Positions 28,206-41,459 of a stretch of 61,924 nucleotides of DNA are shown here, one piece after another. The stretch lies in NCBI GenBank assembly GCA_030145625.1, contig JAQYVF010000020.1:1-61924 (forward strand). Direction: 5' to 3'. This stretch comes from Desulfocapsa sp. Its GTDB lineage: Bacteria > Desulfobacterota > Desulfobulbia > Desulfobulbales > Desulfocapsaceae. Position numbers and translations under genes: made by a program. Positions within the stretch are counted from its first letter, which is position 1; every line of letters begins with the position of its first letter. The notes below the pieces were generated by a model. The model ran no database searches. It saw only the letters and a list, made by a program, of their open reading frames with translations, and was not told the origin of the DNA.

Positions 28206-29822
28206 ATGTCACTTACAGCAACACTCTTCGACCTTATTAAGGGCTGCCCCAGAAATATCAAGAGACGCCTTCTGCGCGATATTCTACTCATCCTCTTTGT
28301 GACTTCCGGAGCCATTCTGGCCATTGTCATGGTCCAGGGAATCAAAACCCAGAACGACATTTCCACGGCCCTTATTAATGACTCCAATCGTCTGGTAAAA
28401 AAACGTTTCAAGTCCTTTACCGCGCCACTCGACAACACCATGAAACTCCTCGCCAAGTGGGGTGAATCCAACCTGCTCAAACTCGACGACCCCGAGCTTC
28501 TTGCCCGACAATTCCAGGCTCTCATGGAGATTCAACCAGCTATCAGCTCAATAGCTCTTGCCGACACTGAGACAAACGAAGTGAGCCTTTCTCATCACAA
28601 AAACCAGTGGTTTTTATATGAGCATCGTAAAGGACTGGCAATTACCTCAAACCTGATTAACGGAAAGCTTGTCAACAAAGAAGAAAACCCAAATGACAGC
28701 TACAATCCGGCACAATCCCTCTGGTTTCGTGGAGCAATGACCATTTCCCCTGCCGGAAGCCTCTTTTTGACCGACCCCCATATCCTTCAAGGGTCAGAAG
28801 AGATCGGGATCACTGCAAGCCTTAGCTGGTCGAAACGTGACACCTCGAACAACTCTTTTATATCTTCCTTCTCCTTTACGATAAAAGAGCTCATGCTCTT
28901 CATGGAAGATCTTGAGATTACCGAAAATGGCCACATACTGCTGCTGCAAAAGAACGGAACCCTCCTGAGCAACATTAGAAATAACAGTCAGCAGACGTCA
29001 ACTGCCGTCTCCTTGCAAAAAGGAAAAAACCTGTCAGAACAACTTCTTCGCACCGTGACCAAAAAACTTCAGGAAGGCTCCGGCGACCCCAACAAAATTA
29101 TTTCCATAAAGAACAACAACAGTACATGGTGGCTTGGATTCACCCCACTCCATGAGCTGACTCAGGATGTATGGGTTGCTATTGTCATTCCGGAAAGCGA
29201 CATCTTTTCCAATCTGCGTAATCAATGGCTCCGTTTTGGTATGTTGGCCGGGTCCATTCTCCTGGCGGGTATCCTCATGACTATCTTTCTGGTTCGGAGA
29301 TACAGCCACCAGCTCAAAGACCTTCCCCAACAGCATATTGACAGCTATGGCTACGAAAACGAGATAGCAGCACTCATCCGAGCAGGTGAATCATCCACCC
29401 TGGAATTCAAATCAACCATGCGCGCCAACCTCAAAACAGGAAAACATGGGAAAGAGATCGAGCTTGCCTGGCTCAAGACTGTGACAGCATTCATGAACAG
29501 TGATGGTGGAATCCTCCTTATCGGAATAGAAGATGACGGAAATATTTTAGGTATTGATGCAGATGATTTTGCCAATGAAGATAAATGCCGACTTCATTTC
29601 AAAAACCTGATCAACTCGCATATCGGAGCCGAATCTTCCCGCTTTATTCATCTCAAGATTGTGACCATTCACGATAAAACCATACTCATCATCGAATGTG
29701 AACGGGTGCGTCGGCCGGTCTTCCTCTCGGTCGGCAAAAATGAAGATTTTTTCATCCGTTCAGGACCGTCAAGCATGAAACTCTCCATGAGCCAAATGAT
29801 AAAATATCTATCAGAACGCTGA
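28206..29822 (+). CDS. Membrane sensor protein with Schlafen-type AlbA_2 domain
   Basis: A 538-residue protein. TM1 about 25-45, an extracytoplasmic part of about 290 residues with a Cache-like look (IQPAISSIALADTETNEVSLSH, LWFRGAMTISPAGSLFLTDP, GHILLLQKNGTLLSN), TM2 about 337-358, then a cytoplasmic AlbA_2 domain at about 390-525 (ESSTLEFKST, FMNSDGGILLIGIEDDGNILGID). AlbA_2/Schlafen domains bind or cleave nucleic acids and are normally soluble. No kinase, GGDEF or ATPase is present, so the AlbA_2 domain is the only output. The gene starts 19 bp after nhaA. Confidence 0.85.
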   Translation: MSLTATLFDLIKGCPRNIKRRLLRDILLILFVTSGAILAIVMVQGIKTQNDISTALINDSNRLVKKRFKSFTAPLDNTMKLLAKWGESNLLKLDDPELLARQFQALMEIQPAISSIALADTETNEVSLSHHKNQWFLYEHRKGLAITSNLINGKLVNKEENPNDSYNPAQSLWFRGAMTISPAGSLFLTDPHILQGSEEIGITASLSWSKRDTSNNSFISSFSFTIKELMLFMEDLEITENGHILLLQKNGTLLSNIRNNSQQTSTAVSLQKGKNLSEQLLRTVTKKLQEGSGDPNKIISIKNNNSTWWLGFTPLHELTQDVWVAIVIPESDIFSNLRNQWLRFGMLAGSILLAGILMTIFLVRRYSHQLKDLPQQHIDSYGYENEIAALIRAGESSTLEFKSTMRANLKTGKHGKEIELAWLKTVTAFMNSDGGILLIGIEDDGNILGIDADDFANEDKCRLHFKNLINSHIGAESSRFIHLKIVTIHDKTILIIECERVRRPVFLSVGKNEDFFIRSGPSSMKLSMSQMIKYLSER

Positions 29823-35527: not shown

Positions 35528-35947
35528 ATGAAAAGACTTACCATTATTGCCCTATCCCTTCTCTGCCTGTTCAATATGGCAGCCATTTTCGAGAAGTTTA
35601 ATTATCTGGAGCCGGATCAGTTTAAGCAGTGGCTTGAGACGAACAAACCCATGGTCATTGTCGACATCCAGGACAAGGCCTCCTTTGCTGCCCACCATTT
35701 CTCCGGTTCCATAGAAACAAATGCCTTTCCGGTCAAGACTGATGCCGAGAAAAAACAAATTGATACAGCCGTGGCAGCCTATAAAACAAGTGGTCATGAC
35801 GTGGTTGTTATCTGCCCCCGTGGTGGTGGCGGAGCCAAAAGATGCTACTCCTATCTCAAAAGCCAGGGCGTGCCCGAAAACAAACTCACCATCTTAAAAG
35901 GTGGTGCGGATAACTGGCCCTACCGCGACATGCTGATCAGCAACTGA
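35528..35947 (+). CDS. Exported rhodanese-like sulfurtransferase
   Basis: A 139-residue protein with an N-terminal hydrophobic segment (LTIIALSLLCLFNMAAI) that exports or anchors it. The single rhodanese domain has the start LEPDQFKQWL, MVIVDIQDK, and the active-site loop CPRGGGGAKR with Cys96. The loop is longer and more Gly-rich than in standard rhodaneses. It would carry a persulfide on Cys96 in the periplasm. The ATG has a very good ribosome-binding site (AAAGGAGAA). It opens a six-gene same-direction block, 138 bp before the double-cubane gene. Confidence 0.88.
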   Translation: MKRLTIIALSLLCLFNMAAIFEKFNYLEPDQFKQWLETNKPMVIVDIQDKASFAAHHFSGSIETNAFPVKTDAEKKQIDTAVAAYKTSGHDVVVICPRGGGGAKRCYSYLKSQGVPENKLTILKGGADNWPYRDMLISN

Positions 35948-36085
35948 ATGATTGAGCCATTAGAACTGTAGGCTGAGTGCTGAAGGCTAAAAACTGTATT
36001 ACCGGAAATTTAAAAAATATAACAAGGCGATCCGGCAGATCATAAAGAAAAATTATCAGGGCGGTTGCTGATAAGGAACTGAAAG

Positions 36086-37375
36086 ATGACTCATTTTGAA
36101 ATAAAGGCCTATCCTGAGATGTGGAAAGACCTTGATATGGACGTGGAGAGATTTGACAAGATGCGCCTGATGCTGGGCGAGATCTATGAAAAAACGTACC
36201 TGTCCCAGAAAAACCGGCCTGCCGGCATGGCCTACTTTGACAACATGGTAGCGGAAATCCATGGCGGCCGTATCAAGGAACTGCTGGCAGCCAAGGAAGA
36301 AGGCAGACCGGTCATCGGCACCTTTTGCGTCTATATTCCGGAAGAGATCGTCCTGGCAGCAGGCGGTGTCTGTGTCGGTCTCTGCGGAGGCTCTCAGGGT
36401 TCCGTACCCGATGCCGAAAAGATCCTGCCCCGCAATATCTGTCCCATGGTGAAATCCGCTTTCGGCTTCAAGGCTGGCCGTATCTGCCCCTATTTTCAAG
36501 TAGTTGATTTCGTCTACGGGGAGACCACCTGCGACGCCAAGAAAAAGACCTGGGAGATTCTCGATGACATGGTGCCCACCCATGTCATGGAAATTCCACA
36601 GATGAAAAATCAGACAGATCAGGATATGTGGCTGGCTGAGGTAAAGGCATTCAAGACCAAGGTGGAGTCAATTTCCGGAAAAGAGGTGACCCTTGCAGAG
36701 ATGAGACAGGCCACCAGGACAATGAACAACAAGCGCAAGGCCCTGCAACGACTCAACAGACTGCGCCATACCAACCCGACGCCCATCTCTGGCAAAGATG
36801 TGTTGCTCATCGAACAGATCGCCTTCTACGACGAACCGGTTCGCTTTGCAAAAGAGGTAAACGAGTTGTGCGATGAACTGGAAAAACGTATCAGTGACAA
36901 TGTTGCCATCCCTGGCAAAAACGCGGCCCGGATAATGGTCGCCGGTGTGCCCATGGCCCTGCCCAACTGGAAACTGCATAATCTGGTGGAAGGGGCAGGA
37001 GCAGTCATCGTCAATGAGGAGAGTTGTATCGGCACCCGTTATTACAAGGACCTGATGGATGAAGATGCTGAGGACATGGAGACCATCCTGCAAAACCTCA
37101 CCAGTCGCTACATGCAGATCGACTGTTCCTGCTTCACCCCGAATAATGAGCGGATCGACCAGGTTCTCAAAGAGTACAAAGAATCCGGTGCCCAGGGCAT
37201 CATCCACTACTCCCTTCAATTCTGCCACACCTATAATATTGAAGAAATCCGTATTCGTCAGGCATGTGAAAAGGAAGGGATCCCCTACATGTTCATAGAA
37301 TCCGACTACTCACCCGAGGATGTCGGGCAGCTGCAGACAAGGGTCGAAGCCTTTCTTGAGCAGATAGGTGAATAG
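36086..37375 (+). CDS. Double-cubane-cluster protein (2-hydroxyacyl-CoA dehydratase-like, YjiM/DCCP type)
   Basis: A 429-residue cytoplasmic protein of the 2-hydroxyacyl-CoA dehydratase D-component superfamily. A single subunit with its own activase gene matches the DCCP/YjiM subgroup, which binds an [Fe8S9] double-cubane cluster. The cysteines are in place: C81 (GTFCVYIPEE), C96, C100, C119 (RNICPM), C134 (GRICPYF), C149, then C313 (ESCIGTRYY), C346, C348 and C379. DCCP reduces small molecules such as acetylene and azide in vitro; its natural substrate is unknown. A true hydroxyacyl-CoA dehydratase normally needs two different subunits, and none is next to it. Ribosome-binding site AAGGAA. 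Confidence 0.87.
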   Translation: MTHFEIKAYPEMWKDLDMDVERFDKMRLMLGEIYEKTYLSQKNRPAGMAYFDNMVAEIHGGRIKELLAAKEEGRPVIGTFCVYIPEEIVLAAGGVCVGLCGGSQGSVPDAEKILPRNICPMVKSAFGFKAGRICPYFQVVDFVYGETTCDAKKKTWEILDDMVPTHVMEIPQMKNQTDQDMWLAEVKAFKTKVESISGKEVTLAEMRQATRTMNNKRKALQRLNRLRHTNPTPISGKDVLLIEQIAFYDEPVRFAKEVNELCDELEKRISDNVAIPGKNAARIMVAGVPMALPNWKLHNLVEGAGAVIVNEESCIGTRYYKDLMDEDAEDMETILQNLTSRYMQIDCSCFTPNNERIDQVLKEYKESGAQGIIHYSLQFCHTYNIEEIRIRQACEKEGIPYMFIESDYSPEDVGQLQTRVEAFLEQIGE

Positions 37376-37399
37376 ATCTGCTATGCAAAAGGGCACACT

Positions 37400-38158
37400 A
37401 TGTATGTAGGCGTAGATCTGGGGTCACGGACCATCAAAATAGCAGCCTGGCAGGATGGCAGGATGGTTGGTCACAACCTGCAGGAAAGCGGTTTTGAACC
37501 CCATGAGCAGGCCAGGGAGATGATAACGGCCTATAATCCCAAGCAAGTCGTTGCCACCGGCTATGGCCGTCACCTGGCCCGCGAACATTTTGCCGACGGG
37601 GTTATCACCGAAATCAAGGCACATGGCATGGGTATCCATGCCATGCTGCCTCAGGCAACGACTGTTGTGGATATCGGAGGACAGGACTCCAAGGTCATAA
37701 CTCTCAATGGCAATGGACAGGTTACCAACTTCCAAATGAATGATAAATGTGCGGCCGGCACAGGGAGATTTCTGGAAATCATGGCCACATCACTGGCCTA
37801 TCCCCTTGGTGATTTCGGCCCGGCTGCCCTTGCCTCGGAGCAGGAAATTCAAATCAATTCCATGTGTACGGTCTTTGCCGAGTCCGAGGTTATTTCAATG
37901 AAAAACAGAGGAATACCAAGGCAGCACATCGCCCGGGCAGTACACTCCTCTGTGGCCGATCGTATCATTGCCATGCTTGGCCGTGTCGGCTTTGCTGAAT
38001 TTATCGCCTTTTCAGGAGGCGTGGCAAACAATCCCTGCATCGTGCAAATGGTCCGGACGAGACTTGAAAATGTACAGGTGGTAGTCCCGGAAAACCCAAG
38101 TATCATAGGTGCCCTTGGTGCAGCTCTTGAGGCTGCAAGAAAGGATGGTCAGGCGTGA
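37400..38158 (+). CDS. Acyl-CoA dehydratase activase family ATPase (DCCP reductase)
   Basis: A 252-residue ASKHA-fold ATPase of the BadF/BadG/BcrA/BcrD family. It begins MYVGVDLGSRTIKI, has the phosphate loop DIGGQDSK, and carries Cys117 (NDKCAAGTGRFLE) and Cys156 (NSMCTVFAESEV), which in the family hold one [4Fe-4S] cluster at the homodimer interface. ATP hydrolysis drives a low-potential electron to the partner, here the double-cubane protein 24 bp upstream. The next gene overlaps its stop by 4 bp (GTGA). Confidence 0.93.
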   Translation: MYVGVDLGSRTIKIAAWQDGRMVGHNLQESGFEPHEQAREMITAYNPKQVVATGYGRHLAREHFADGVITEIKAHGMGIHAMLPQATTVVDIGGQDSKVITLNGNGQVTNFQMNDKCAAGTGRFLEIMATSLAYPLGDFGPAALASEQEIQINSMCTVFAESEVISMKNRGIPRQHIARAVHSSVADRIIAMLGRVGFAEFIAFSGGVANNPCIVQMVRTRLENVQVVVPENPSIIGALGAALEAARKDGQA

Positions 38159-38640
38159 CCGCAAACGGACAACAAAAGAGCAATGCACCAGCCCCTGTTG
38201 CCTTTACCTGGATGGCAAGGATTTCCCGCTGGCTCATAAGTGCGCCTTTTCTTTATGCCGGTATCACCAAACTTACTGACCCGCAAAGCTTTGCAGATAT
38301 CATCGCCGGATTCGGCCTGCTTCCTGAGCCTCTGATAATAGTCACAGCCCTGCTGTTGCCTCTCCTGGAAATCGGTATCGCAGTCGGACTTCTCTGCAAT
38401 GTCCGCATATGCCTCCCAGCGGCTGCCTCCCTCATGATTCTCTTTATCGCTGTGCTCAGCTACGGAATCTGGTTGGGCCTGGATATAGACTGCGCTTGTT
38501 TTGGCCCGGAAGATCCCGAACAGGCCTACCATGGCCTTTGGAGTGCCCTGTTCAGGGATTTGGCCTTTCTTATCCCAATCCTCTATTTATTCTGGTTTCA
38601 ATATCTTACGAATCGTAAAAAAACGATTCTATCTTTTTAA
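38155..38640 (+). CDS. MauE/DoxX-family membrane protein
   Basis: A 161-residue membrane protein with four hydrophobic segments, starting with the DoxX/MauE phrase SAPFLYAGITKLTDPQSFADIIAGFGLLP, and with the MauE-type pair Cys113-Ala-Cys115 in DIDCACFGPED. MauE acts in disulfide formation for methylamine dehydrogenase; DoxX/DoxD relatives link thiosulfate or thiols to the quinone pool. The GTG start at 38155 overlaps the stop of the activase gene, implying coupled translation. Placement suggests electron exchange between membrane quinone and periplasmic sulfur (inference). Confidence 0.85.
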   Translation: MTANGQQKSNAPAPVAFTWMARISRWLISAPFLYAGITKLTDPQSFADIIAGFGLLPEPLIIVTALLLPLLEIGIAVGLLCNVRICLPAAASLMILFIAVLSYGIWLGLDIDCACFGPEDPEQAYHGLWSALFRDLAFLIPILYLFWFQYLTNRKKTILSF

Positions 38641-38662
38641 TCTTTCTTGAAAGGAGTCAAAA

Positions 38663-39202
38663 ATGCGACTGAAAAAAAGCATACTCACAGCACCTGTATT
38701 CCTCACCCTGCTTCTGGGATTCAGCTTATCCGCCATGGCCTTCGGCGCCAATAAATTTGAACAAGAAGTGGAGAAGGAGACTGGCGCGGTCAAACTTGTA
38801 CGGGAAGTGATCAGAGGTGAATATGGCGTAATAACTACGGAGGAGTTGAAAAAGCTGATTGACTCCGGCCAAGAAATACTCGTTGTCGACACGATGCCCT
38901 ATAAAGACAGCTACAAAAAAAGTCATATCCCCGGCGCACAGCAGTTTCTTTTCCCGATTCCAGAAATGACAACATGGGACAGCAAAGAGACCGACGGCAA
39001 AAGCCAGGAAGATTTTGTCGCTCTCCTCGGTCCCGACAAGAGTAAAACCATTGTTATCTATTGCGGCTTTGTAAAATGCACCAGGAGTCACAACGGCGCC
39101 ATGTGGGCCAGAAAATTTGGCTACACAAACGTTCTTCGTCATCCCGGGGGAATTTTTGCCTGGAAAGGAGCCGGATACGAGGCTGAAGCAGTCAACCAAT
39201 GA
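38663..39202 (+). CDS. Exported rhodanese-like sulfurtransferase (second)
   Basis: A 179-residue periplasmic protein: signal peptide with AMA cleavage at 26, then a rhodanese domain (ITTEELKKLIDSGQEILVVDT, SHIPGAQQFLFP) with active-site Cys134 in VIYCGFVKCTRSHNGA. A second Cys (Cys139) is in the loop, so a disulfide between the two is possible. This loop differs clearly from that of the first rhodanese in the block, so the two are not simple duplicates. Good ribosome-binding site GAAAGGAG, 22 bp after the MauE gene. Confidence 0.9.
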   Translation: MRLKKSILTAPVFLTLLLGFSLSAMAFGANKFEQEVEKETGAVKLVREVIRGEYGVITTEELKKLIDSGQEILVVDTMPYKDSYKKSHIPGAQQFLFPIPEMTTWDSKETDGKSQEDFVALLGPDKSKTIVIYCGFVKCTRSHNGAMWARKFGYTNVLRHPGGIFAWKGAGYEAEAVNQ

Positions 39203-39264
39203 ACAGAACATTAAAAAAACAAGGATAGGTCTAAGTTAACAAAGCAACAAATGGAGAAAAGCAT

Positions 39265-40278
39265 ATGAGAAAGATACTGAACTTATCGATAATGGTTGTC
39301 TTTTTCCTCATTCCTGTCTGGACCTGGGCAGGCAATGAGAGCAGCGGAACAATCACCATGGAATTTGATCTGTCGGCTCATAGTGTCAATGAACAGGCGC
39401 AGCTCTGGATTCCCTACCCCCTCTCAGACCGGGACCAACTCATCAGCAAGGTAAGTATCACCGGTGATTATGCCGAATCGGCCGTTTACAGCGATCAGGT
39501 GTACTCCACTCCAATGCTGTATGCCCGCTGGGATAAAGGGGCCGCAAGTCGTAAGCTGACCCTGTCTTTTCACGTTGTCCGTCAGGAAGTCGTGCGCCGG
39601 GATTTCCCTGCCAAAGAGACAGCCTGGAACCCTGCTGATTACGCCATGTACCTCAAACCAACGAGTCTTGGCCCGATCGACGGTCAGGTCAAAGTGCTGG
39701 CAGACCAAATCACCCAAGGAAAAACAGGTGTACTGGAAAAAGCCAAGGCAATTTATGACTGGACATGTGAAAATATGTACCGTGATCCCAATACTCGTGG
39801 CTGTGGTCCCGGTGATGTCTGTTCACTGCTTGCCACACCCGGAGGGAAATGTACCGATATCCATTCTGTTTTTGTCTCCCTCTGCCGAGCTGCCGGTATT
39901 CCAGCACGGGAAGTTTTCGGTATTCGCCAGGGAAAAAAGACAGAACAGGACATCTCCACATGGCAGCACTGCTGGGCAGAATTCTACCTGCCCGGATATG
40001 ACTGGATACCTGTTGACCCAGCGGATGTGCGGAAAATGATGCTCAAAGAAAAACTAGAGCTTGTTGATGCCAAGACCCAATACTATCGAGATTATTTCTG
40101 GGGTAGTTGGGATCAGTACAGAGTGAAATTGGCCATGGGACGTGACCTTCAGCTCAACCCTCCGCAACATGGAGACCCGCTGAACACATTTGGTTATCCC
40201 TATGCCCAGGTAGGCAACACAACACTCGACTGGCTTGATCCAAAGAGTTTTAAATATAGGTTCACGTTTCGTCAATGA
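39265..40278 (+). CDS. Exported transglutaminase-like protein
   Basis: A 337-residue protein with a signal peptide (cleavage near TWA, 22). A transglutaminase-like core follows with triad Cys196 (GGKCTDIHSVFV), His235 (WQHCWAEFYLPG) and Asp251 (PVDPAD). Extra cysteines around 168, 180 and 186 may form disulfides. Bacterial members of this kind are often cysteine peptidases or have a scaffold role. It is the last gene of the rhodanese/double-cubane block (62 bp after the second rhodanese) and is followed by a convergent hairpin. Its role there is unknown. Confidence 0.88.
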   Translation: MRKILNLSIMVVFFLIPVWTWAGNESSGTITMEFDLSAHSVNEQAQLWIPYPLSDRDQLISKVSITGDYAESAVYSDQVYSTPMLYARWDKGAASRKLTLSFHVVRQEVVRRDFPAKETAWNPADYAMYLKPTSLGPIDGQVKVLADQITQGKTGVLEKAKAIYDWTCENMYRDPNTRGCGPGDVCSLLATPGGKCTDIHSVFVSLCRAAGIPAREVFGIRQGKKTEQDISTWQHCWAEFYLPGYDWIPVDPADVRKMMLKEKLELVDAKTQYYRDYFWGSWDQYRVKLAMGRDLQLNPPQHGDPLNTFGYPYAQVGNTTLDWLDPKSFKYRFTFRQ

Positions 40279-40481: not shown

Positions 40482-41459
40482 TTACTTATTCTGTTTTTTA
40501 CTAATAAACTTGTTAACCAGATCCTGAAATTTTTCAGGCGAAGAGATACAGGACCGTCCCTCCTGGCATTGACTTAATAAAAAACAAAAGTCGAGAAATT
40601 CATTCATCAAACGAGTTTTGGCCTTATTTTTGTGCTGAATAACATAGAGTTGACGTTTCATGTCAACACCCTCAAGACGGATTCTTTGCAGCCCCCCGCG
40701 CTTAACTGCCCGGCAAACGGTCAAACTAGAGAGACAACCGACGCCGGCACCAGCCTCAACGGCCTTTTTAATGGCTTCTGTATGCCCCAGTTCCATTACA
40801 ACATTAAGGTCTGTGACATATTTACCAAGTTTACTTTTAAATATCTGAGCGGTTCTTGATCCAGCCTCGCGCATTACCCATTGATATTTCTTTATATCGG
40901 TTGCAACGTTACATACACTTTCTGATTTTTTATTCTTTGTTGAACCGCTGACCAGAACAAGCTCGTCCTGAAACCAGGGCTTGGCAGTGACCTGTTCGTT
41001 ATAGACCTCCCCCTCAACAAAGCCAAGATCAGCTTCCCGGTCAACGATAAGTTTCTCGGCTGTTTCAGTATCACATACCCGCATGTTAAAATATACATTG
41101 GGATTAATACTCTTAAATGCAGTTAGCAGATACGGTAAAACATAGTTACCAATGGTGGAACTGGCGACCAGTTCCAGAGAGCCGCCAAACTGACCCTCTT
41201 TTTCATTCATCAACATATCCAAATTGTCTAGCTTATCGAGAATTTCCCGACTGATAGGGAGGAAATATCGTCCCCTGTCGTTGAGTTCAAGAGACCTGCC
41301 GGACCGATCGAATAACGCCCCCCCTAATTGATTCTCCATTTCATTCAAAGCTAGACTGACTGCGGATTGGGTAATAGAGAGACCTTGAGCTGCTCTTGTT
41401 ACCTGACCACTTTCTACAACCGCATTAAAAATCTTAAGTTGACGTATTGTTACTGACAT
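40482..41459 (-). CDS. LysR-family transcriptional regulator
   Basis: A 325-residue regulator. The N-terminal winged helix-turn-helix is typical (IRQLKIFNAVVESGQVTRAAQ, ITQSAVSLALNEMENQLGGALFDRSGR), and a two-lobed effector domain follows (LELVASSTIGNYVLPYLL, DLGFVEG). The overall pattern is like CbbR/YeiE-type regulators. The last 30 residues are an extension with several Cys and Lys. It is convergent to the double-cubane block, so it is not in that operon but could regulate it. The 680 bp upstream (41460-42136) are AT-rich and show no clear gene. Confidence 0.93.
   Translation of the reverse strand: MSVTIRQLKIFNAVVESGQVTRAAQGLSITQSAVSLALNEMENQLGGALFDRSGRSLELNDRGRYFLPISREILDKLDNLDMLMNEKEGQFGGSLELVASSTIGNYVLPYLLTAFKSINPNVYFNMRVCDTETAEKLIVDREADLGFVEGEVYNEQVTAKPWFQDELVLVSGSTKNKKSESVCNVATDIKKYQWVMREAGSRTAQIFKSKLGKYVTDLNVVMELGHTEAIKKAVEAGAGVGCLSSLTVCRAVKRGGLQRIRLEGVDMKRQLYVIQHKNKAKTRLMNEFLDFCFLLSQCQEGRSCISSPEKFQDLVNKFISKKQNK

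Follow-up and report, generated by a model that had tools for sequence, protein, structure and literature searches.

A six-gene block around a double-cubane cluster protein in Desulfocapsa sp. and the recurrent linkage of its enzyme family to selenium genes

The stretch of DNA analyzed here (the window) comprises 61,924 nucleotides of Desulfocapsa sp. (assembly GCA_030145625.1, contig JAQYVF010000020.1) and was found to contain a block of six genes which includes a double-cubane cluster protein (DCCP) and the activase serving as its ATP-driven electron donor. In relatives this enzyme pair is recurrently linked to genes for selenocysteine (Sec) and selenium, which suggests a possible role for the block. 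An earlier reading of the letters and their open reading frames (ORFs), the original prediction, described six same-direction genes at 35528-40278. Comparison of the window ORFs with Pfam and NCBIfam models upheld this description, as all six are present on the plus strand and their identities are backed by family matches (Table 1). The gaps between the genes are, in order, 138, 24, -4, 22, and 62 bases, the negative value being the predicted GTGA overlap between activase and mauE. This overlap is exact, with the mauE start codon GTG at 38155 and the activase stop codon TGA at 38156-38158, and it favors the proposed single transcript. A weak terminator-like hairpin at the mauE end (38610-38629, 7 pairs) calls for caution on this point; it is not decisive, because the count of terminator-like sites in the block region (10) is near the level of shuffled sequences (6.3 +/- 2.6).

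Table 1. Genes of the block and the adjoining regulator, with family matches and residues of interest.
Feature	Position	Strand	Matches and residues
Rhodanese A	35528..35947	+	PF00581, 38.9 bits; Cys96 and Cys106 in active-site loop
DCCP, catalytic subunit	36086..37375	+	PF06050; NF040772, 484.9 bits (cut-off 350)
Activase / DCCP reductase (ATP-driven electron donor)	37400..38158	+	PF01869; TIGR00241, 217.1 bits (cut-off 125.4)
MauE/DoxX membrane protein	38155..38640	+	PF07291, 84.8 bits; Cys113 and Cys115
Rhodanese B	38663..39202	+	PF00581, 63.7 bits; Cys134-GFVK-Cys139
Transglutaminase-like protein	39265..40278	+	PF01841, 102.3 bits; Cys196, His235, Asp in VDPAD
LysR regulator, convergent with the block	40482..41459	-	NF040786, 219.7 bits (cut-off 250)

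DCCPs resemble nitrogenases in plan, in that an ATP-driven donor is paired with an unusual cluster of eight iron atoms. Judged by its sequence, the window enzyme is a genuine DCCP with an ATP-driven activase, as had been proposed, and both proteins exceed the cut-offs of their models (Table 1). The catalytic subunit matches the structures 7YYL and 6ENO over residues 11-427 (E about 1e-151), and its Cys residues 81, 100, 119, 134, 149, 314, 347, and 380, which are aligned in 7YYL, are each conserved in 208 or more of the 215 DCCP sequences collected. Within the activase, Cys117 and Cys156 sit in the motifs DKCAAGTGRF and NSMC; its PDB relatives are 4EHT, 9GAI, 1HUX, and chain E of 7YYL. The 6ENO/7YYL pair, from Carboxydothermus hydrogenoformans (PMC7306483), belongs to the same NCBIfam equivalog family and shares a near full-length alignment, the conserved Cys residues and an ATPase partner. 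The window pair differs from it in its gene block, which also encodes MauE, a transglutaminase and two rhodaneses, and some of its relatives adjoin selenocysteine genes. The 2-hydroxyacyl-CoA dehydratases and class I benzoyl-CoA reductases have the HGD-D family and an ATP-driven activase in common with the window pair, but they consist of two unlike subunits, whereas the block holds a single HGD-D gene. An identity with these enzymes was rejected on this ground and because the window DCCP scores far below their equivalog cut-offs (108.2 of 700, 94.2 of 453.8, and 85.2 of 421.15 bits). The same genome has a second DCCP (C101:6713-7861; loci L002 and L237), which is 30.7% identical to the window copy over 388 residues and has its own activase; selenium queries gave no match on its 15.8 kb contig.

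An N-terminal hydrophobic segment was identified by a simple hydropathy scan in both rhodaneses and in the transglutaminase-like protein, and the predicted Cys-x-Cys pair is present in MauE. Pfam matches for 10 scanned proteins included no mau structural gene. Conservation of these partners was followed in 71 loci (the clade set), which were drawn from named genome contigs fetched by similarity to the window DCCP and which come mostly from Desulfobulbales-type and Geobacter-type isolates or metagenome-assembled genomes (MAGs), with one Nitrospiraceae and one Caldimicrobium MAG. Genes near DCCP were counted with single-sequence phmmer queries at bit thresholds of our own setting, by which diverged genes may be missed, and gene calling by codon usage left known gaps (the MauE of locus L034 was missed and the LysR of L033 shortened). 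The activase was found near DCCP in 68 of the 71 loci, followed by the c3 family (25), a HesB-type gene (24), rhodanese A (23), rhodanese B (16), MvhD/FlpD (16), HdrA (15), the transglutaminase (14), the c13 family (13), and MauE (8). The partners therefore recur in relatives, in agreement with the conserved module which had been proposed, and their linkage to DCCP is above chance. The linkage is thus not confined to this genome, a restriction which would have counted against the original prediction. It is also modular, because the full partner set of the window occurs in only one of the 71 loci (L033, in which L004 is contained letter for letter), with L066 having every partner except rhodanese A. 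In a class sample of 192 genomes, rhodanese B was present in 48 and the transglutaminase in 61. Neither can be regarded as an exclusive partner of DCCP, as comparison of coordinates placed them within about 3 kb of it in only 10/48 and 15/61 carrier genomes, respectively.

Some conserved neighbors in the clade set deserve separate mention. The c3 gene encodes 167 residues (L051:10929-11429), lies past the activase, about 2.5 kb downstream of DCCP, and has only weak ParE/YafQ-like matches. The c13 protein, of about 88 residues with paired Cys (L058:7656-7919), did not reach the cut-off of any family. In L088 (6670-7737), L037, L044, and L091, the gene directly 5' of DCCP is a fused methionine sulfoxide reductase A/B.

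Genes of selenium metabolism were found beside DCCP in a number of relatives. Loci L067 and L070 share the order HdrA-MvhD-SelD-YedF-DUF1847-DsbC-like-HesB-DCCP-activase-c13-rhodanese A-tRNA-Sec-SelB, which brings c13 into operons with tRNA-Sec and SelB. Locus L066 has the order SelD-YedF-HesB-rhodanese-DCCP-activase-MauE-rhodanese B-c13-c3-transglutaminase and combines selenium genes with the majority of the partners found in the window. A shorter arrangement, SelD-YedF-transglutaminase-DCCP-activase, is found in L094, L099, and L102, while L195 carries DCCP, YedF, tRNA-Sec, MauE, and rhodanese B on a single stretch. The DUF1847 gene (PF08901; L067:6112-6690), between YedF and the DsbC-like gene of the Sec operon, may represent another unrecognised selenium-associated family.

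The frequency of this arrangement was assessed in a phylum sample of 394 genomes, of which 139 had a DCCP over cut-off. Neighborhoods reaching about 9 kb from DCCP were obtained from 137 of these (G198, for which no place was listed, and the window's own genome were left out), and 20 of the 137 loci are shorter than 10 kb. At least one of SelD, SelA, SelB, or tRNA-Sec lies near DCCP in 31/137 loci (20/56 families), and with YedF added the figures are 50/137 loci and 29/56 families. Poisson expectations for the 2.05 Mb covered, calculated with a mean genome size of 3.3 Mb and with copy numbers chosen by us, were 0.68 for SelD, 0.62 for SelB, 0.62 for tRNA-Sec, and 0.93 for YedF, compared with 18, 11, 8, and 29 seen; SelD is thus about 26-fold over expectation. 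As a control, 20 random windows were taken from DCCP-bearing contigs, two of which (L245 and L247) were dropped as they overlap DCCP itself. A core selenium gene was found in one of the remaining 18 (SelB in L251); its coordinates show it to be identical with the SelB of the DCCP neighborhood L128 of genome G328, which is part of the count above. The linkage occurs in both large DCCP subgroups and in several small ones, with some small clusters and singletons being without it. A gene resembling selenium/sulfur carriers (DUF3343 type) was found near DCCP in 16/137 phylum loci and in 0/18 control windows and 0/71 clade loci. In the class sample, SelD lies within 6 kb of DCCP in at least 13 of the 95 genomes with a DCCP-type match. 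The DCCP-activase family is recurrently linked to Sec and selenium genes in relatives of the window block.

Co-occurrence with the selenocysteine trait was examined in the phylum sample, because SelD is near-universal in the class sample (178/192 genomes) and its presence there is uninformative. SelD alone gave a modest signal, being found in 133/139 genomes with DCCP and in 222/255 others (Fisher p 0.007). A SelD match was lacking in 39 genomes, six with DCCP and 33 without. The six do not stand as counter-examples, since each passes SelB or tRNA-Sec: all six have SelB matches (five over cut-off) and all six have tRNA-Sec matches (five over the gathering threshold), G284 having tRNA-Sec with SelB below cut-off and G288 the reverse. 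The 33 others, named by elimination from the lists and judged on SelD and SelB with no search for tRNA-Sec, comprise 14 with SelB over cut-off and 19 without. DCCP was found in 0/19 genomes having neither SelD nor SelB, compared with 139/375 of the others (Fisher two-sided p 0.0003), and all 139 DCCP genomes of the sample carry a selenocysteine marker. Among 14 control genomes, matches over cut-off to DCCP, SelD, and SelB mark the same two only, Escherichia coli and M. jannaschii.

A further connection to selenium was observed in the rhodaneses near DCCP. In L134 and L142, which come from two genomes in a single family, DCCP-activase(-YedF) is directly followed by a rhodanese gene with two in-frame TGA codons, and these align exactly with Cys134 and Cys139 of rhodanese B of the window. 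The rhodanese of L182, about 8 kb from its DCCP, has one in-frame TGA. These UGA codons are presumably read as Sec. Since they occur at homologous Cys positions beside DCCP, those partners of the window block that are likely to be periplasmic probably have selenoprotein cousins in the same neighborhoods; in L142, MauE and a rhodanese B of Cys type come next after the gene with the UxxxxU motif. UxxxxU is the motif tabulated for the selenoprotein TsoB (PMC13188914), a rhodanese/DsbD fusion (NF045694), and as aligned the Cys134-GFVK-Cys139 of rhodanese B is the Cys form of it. Both rhodanese B and its UxxxxU homologue match the N-terminal rhodanese domain of TsoB, the former with 81.9 bits (E 2.7e-23) and the latter, with TGA read as Cys, with 201 bits, against a cut-off of 805 for the full fusion. 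Rhodanese B differs from TsoB in being a stand-alone domain with Cys-x4-Cys which falls far under the model cut-off. HesB matches ending in TGA were not accepted as selenoproteins, since the alignment ends with this TGA, which could simply be a normal stop codon.

LysR-type regulators were scanned at 13 sites near DCCP, comprising nine of the 13 listed from phylum loci, one from a clade member, the window's own, and those of its two closest relatives, L034 and L033. Ten of the 13 pass the model for the selenium-type LysR (NF040786, cut-off 250) with 268.5 to 325.1 bits. The three of the window lineage fall below it, and so the idea that every LysR near DCCP is of the selenium type was dropped; the window LysR was also under the cut-off of the YeiE model (NF040889, 255.8 of 480 bits). 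A LysR-like gene has been reported to share a transcription unit with DCCP and its reductase in Calderihabitans (PMC7306483).

The reading we prefer, although it is close to an even call and falls slightly on the doubtful side, is that the block represents a form of the DCCP system that handles selenium, in which DCCP and activase reduce a selenium species to selenide for SelD. The activase would hydrolyze ATP and thereby drive electrons into the double-cubane protein, and this would in turn act on a selenium species which is hard to reduce, such as a selenodisulfide or Se(0) in elemental or protein-bound form, and yield selenide, which SelD uses as its substrate. At the outer face of the membrane, zero-valent chalcogen may be collected and handed on by the exported rhodaneses and by MauE with its Cys-x-Cys pair. 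The transglutaminase-like protein, in which Cys, His, and Asp motifs are present, would be an accessory, and the HdrA-MvhD genes of several loci are a plausible source of low-potential electrons. We infer the substrate, the direction of flow, the roles of the periplasmic parts and a common role of this block and its family; the gene identities, the conserved Cys sets, the linkage to Sec and selenium genes in relatives, the co-occurrence with the Sec trait and the in-frame UGA codons are direct observations. At pH 7 the Se(0)/HSe- couple calculates to -0.72 V (1 M) or -0.54 V (1 uM selenide), and sulfur is much easier to reduce than Se(0). ATP would be spent because the reduction of Se(0) to selenide needs a far lower potential than that of sulfur, and if true, the selenium reading would explain the expenditure of ATP by the DCCP system.

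Several observations weigh against a selenium role. The linkage does not itself name a substrate, and the co-occurrence test was not corrected for kinship. DCCP was found in 139/394 phylum genomes, compared with 355/394 for SelD, so that DCCP is dispensable for Sec synthesis. No counted selenium gene is present in 87/137 phylum neighborhoods, and in the window's own clade SelD, SelA, SelB, or tRNA-Sec lies near DCCP in only 7/71 loci (8/71 with YedF). Rhodanese B lies away from DCCP in 38 of its 48 carrier genomes. The LysRs of the window lineage score under the NF040786 cut-off, at 219.7 bits in the window, 227.3 in L034, and 178.5 in L033 (a shortened call). Our confidence was slightly lowered because these LysRs fall outside the selenium type and because selenium genes are so infrequent near DCCP in the clade. 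Selenium queries across the whole window gave no match, and no tRNA was found in it by ARAGORN, so the block was rejected as a selenium operon in itself. Its host does have the selenocysteine trait, with a SelD containing an in-frame TGA, a SelA fragment (490.7 bits), and a tRNA-Sec (73.4 bits); those listed all lie on other contigs than the window. For this particular block a selenium role is plausible rather than established.

The original prediction had suggested that the block reduces a sulfur compound or sulfane sulfur in connection with the periplasm. A conserved module around DCCP is borne out by the clade set, so that the prediction is partly supported; the sulfur chemistry is not the one indicated by the wider context, in which genes dedicated to selenium recur near DCCP. 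According to the sulfur explanation, the exported rhodaneses would supply DCCP with sulfane sulfur or a different sulfur compound for reduction, and selenium genes would adjoin it only through common trafficking proteins. Rhodanese, YedF (TusA and DsrE), and HesB-type proteins can indeed carry sulfur, the 71 named relatives are largely of Desulfobulbales type and Geobacter type, and the block has two sulfurtransferase-family genes in a window without a selenium gene match. However, what recurs near DCCP includes genes proper to selenium (SelD, SelA, SelB, tRNA-Sec, and the selenium-type LysR), none of the 19 genomes lacking SelD and SelB has a DCCP, and S(0) is readily reduced to HS- without ATP. 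We regard a sulfur role as unlikely, leaving it some weight because rhodanese, TusA/DsrE-like, and HesB-type proteins can handle either element, and a selenium role for the DCCP family is better supported.

It is also conceivable, though rather unlikely, that DCCP serves the selenium trait indirectly, by reductive cleavage of organic selenium (methyl selenides), by reactivating oxidised selenoproteins, or by feeding electrons to a selenium-containing enzyme, and does not form selenide from inorganic selenium. The legend of a figure on methyl-selenide corrinoid gene clusters mentions both DCCP and its reductase (PMC10418091), and both the fused methionine sulfoxide reductase of several clade members and HdrA, MvhD, and formate-dehydrogenase-like genes are neighbors of DCCP. 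No corrinoid methyltransferase, however, was found among the neighbor representatives scanned, many neighbors being left unscanned. Less probable still is that the arrangement is one of genomic convenience, with DCCP acting in anaerobes as a general low-potential reductase or detoxification enzyme for several substrates and selenium genes gathering around it as a fellow anaerobic trait. The neighborhoods lacking selenium genes would fit such a role, as would the in vitro substrates acetylene, hydrazine, and azide (PMC11971306) and the several diverged subgroups of the family. It is opposed by the excess of SelD near DCCP, by the persistence of the selenium linkage across diverged subgroups, and by the 10 of 13 scanned sites at which the LysR is of the selenium type.

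To our knowledge, the route by which anaerobes produce free selenide for SelD is poorly defined. The biological function of DCCPs is stated to be unknown in a 2025 paper on benzoyl-CoA reductase (PMC11971306), and the linkage described here ties the two questions together in a form which is testable in E. coli. A first hint of it is already in print. In a table of a 2015 comparative genomics study, the STRING partners given for selenium genes include an activase and a dehydratase subunit (PMC5322559), and a 2023 preprint described a "dicubane cluster protein" as "provisionally linked to selenium metabolism" (PMC10418091). In the same preprint many of the methyl-selenide corrinoid clusters (type 1 MGC) contain DCCP and some hold SelABCD genes, a likeness to the loci described above; those clusters differ in being centered on corrinoid methyltransferases, which did not appear among the neighbors scanned here. 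Our searches of the open-access literature brought up no systematic test of a DCCP-selenium link; selenide formation by DCCP had not been proposed in the papers found, nor were rhodanese, MauE, or transglutaminase partners mentioned. What is new here is the strength of the link, the set of partners, and a testable chemistry.

In E. coli K-12, YjiM belongs to the DCCP family (531.4 bits, NF040772) and YjiL passes the activase model (363.7 bits). The two genes, which together with ytiA span L104:7669-9851, are followed by ytiA, whose product belongs to PF11823, a putative selenium/sulfur carrier family in Pfam. This arrangement resembles the loci above in having a DCCP-activase pair with a selenium/sulfur-carrier gene next in line, and differs in that no rhodanese, MauE, or transglutaminase is annotated beside it and selA and selB lie elsewhere in the chromosome. 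A wider proposal, which we hold more tentatively than the one made for the block and consider somewhat doubtful, is that DCCP-activase pairs including YjiM-YjiL are ATP-dependent selenium reductases giving SelD selenide from Se(0)-level species beyond the reach of ordinary reductants. In Desulfobulbales-type bacteria they would be linked to an extracytoplasmic collection of selenium or sulfur by way of rhodaneses, among them some selenoproteins, and a MauE-type membrane protein.

Elsewhere in the window, a protein with a Schlafen AlbA_2 domain (PF04326, 79.3 bits) is encoded at 28206-29822, adjoining a Na+/H+ antiporter gene.

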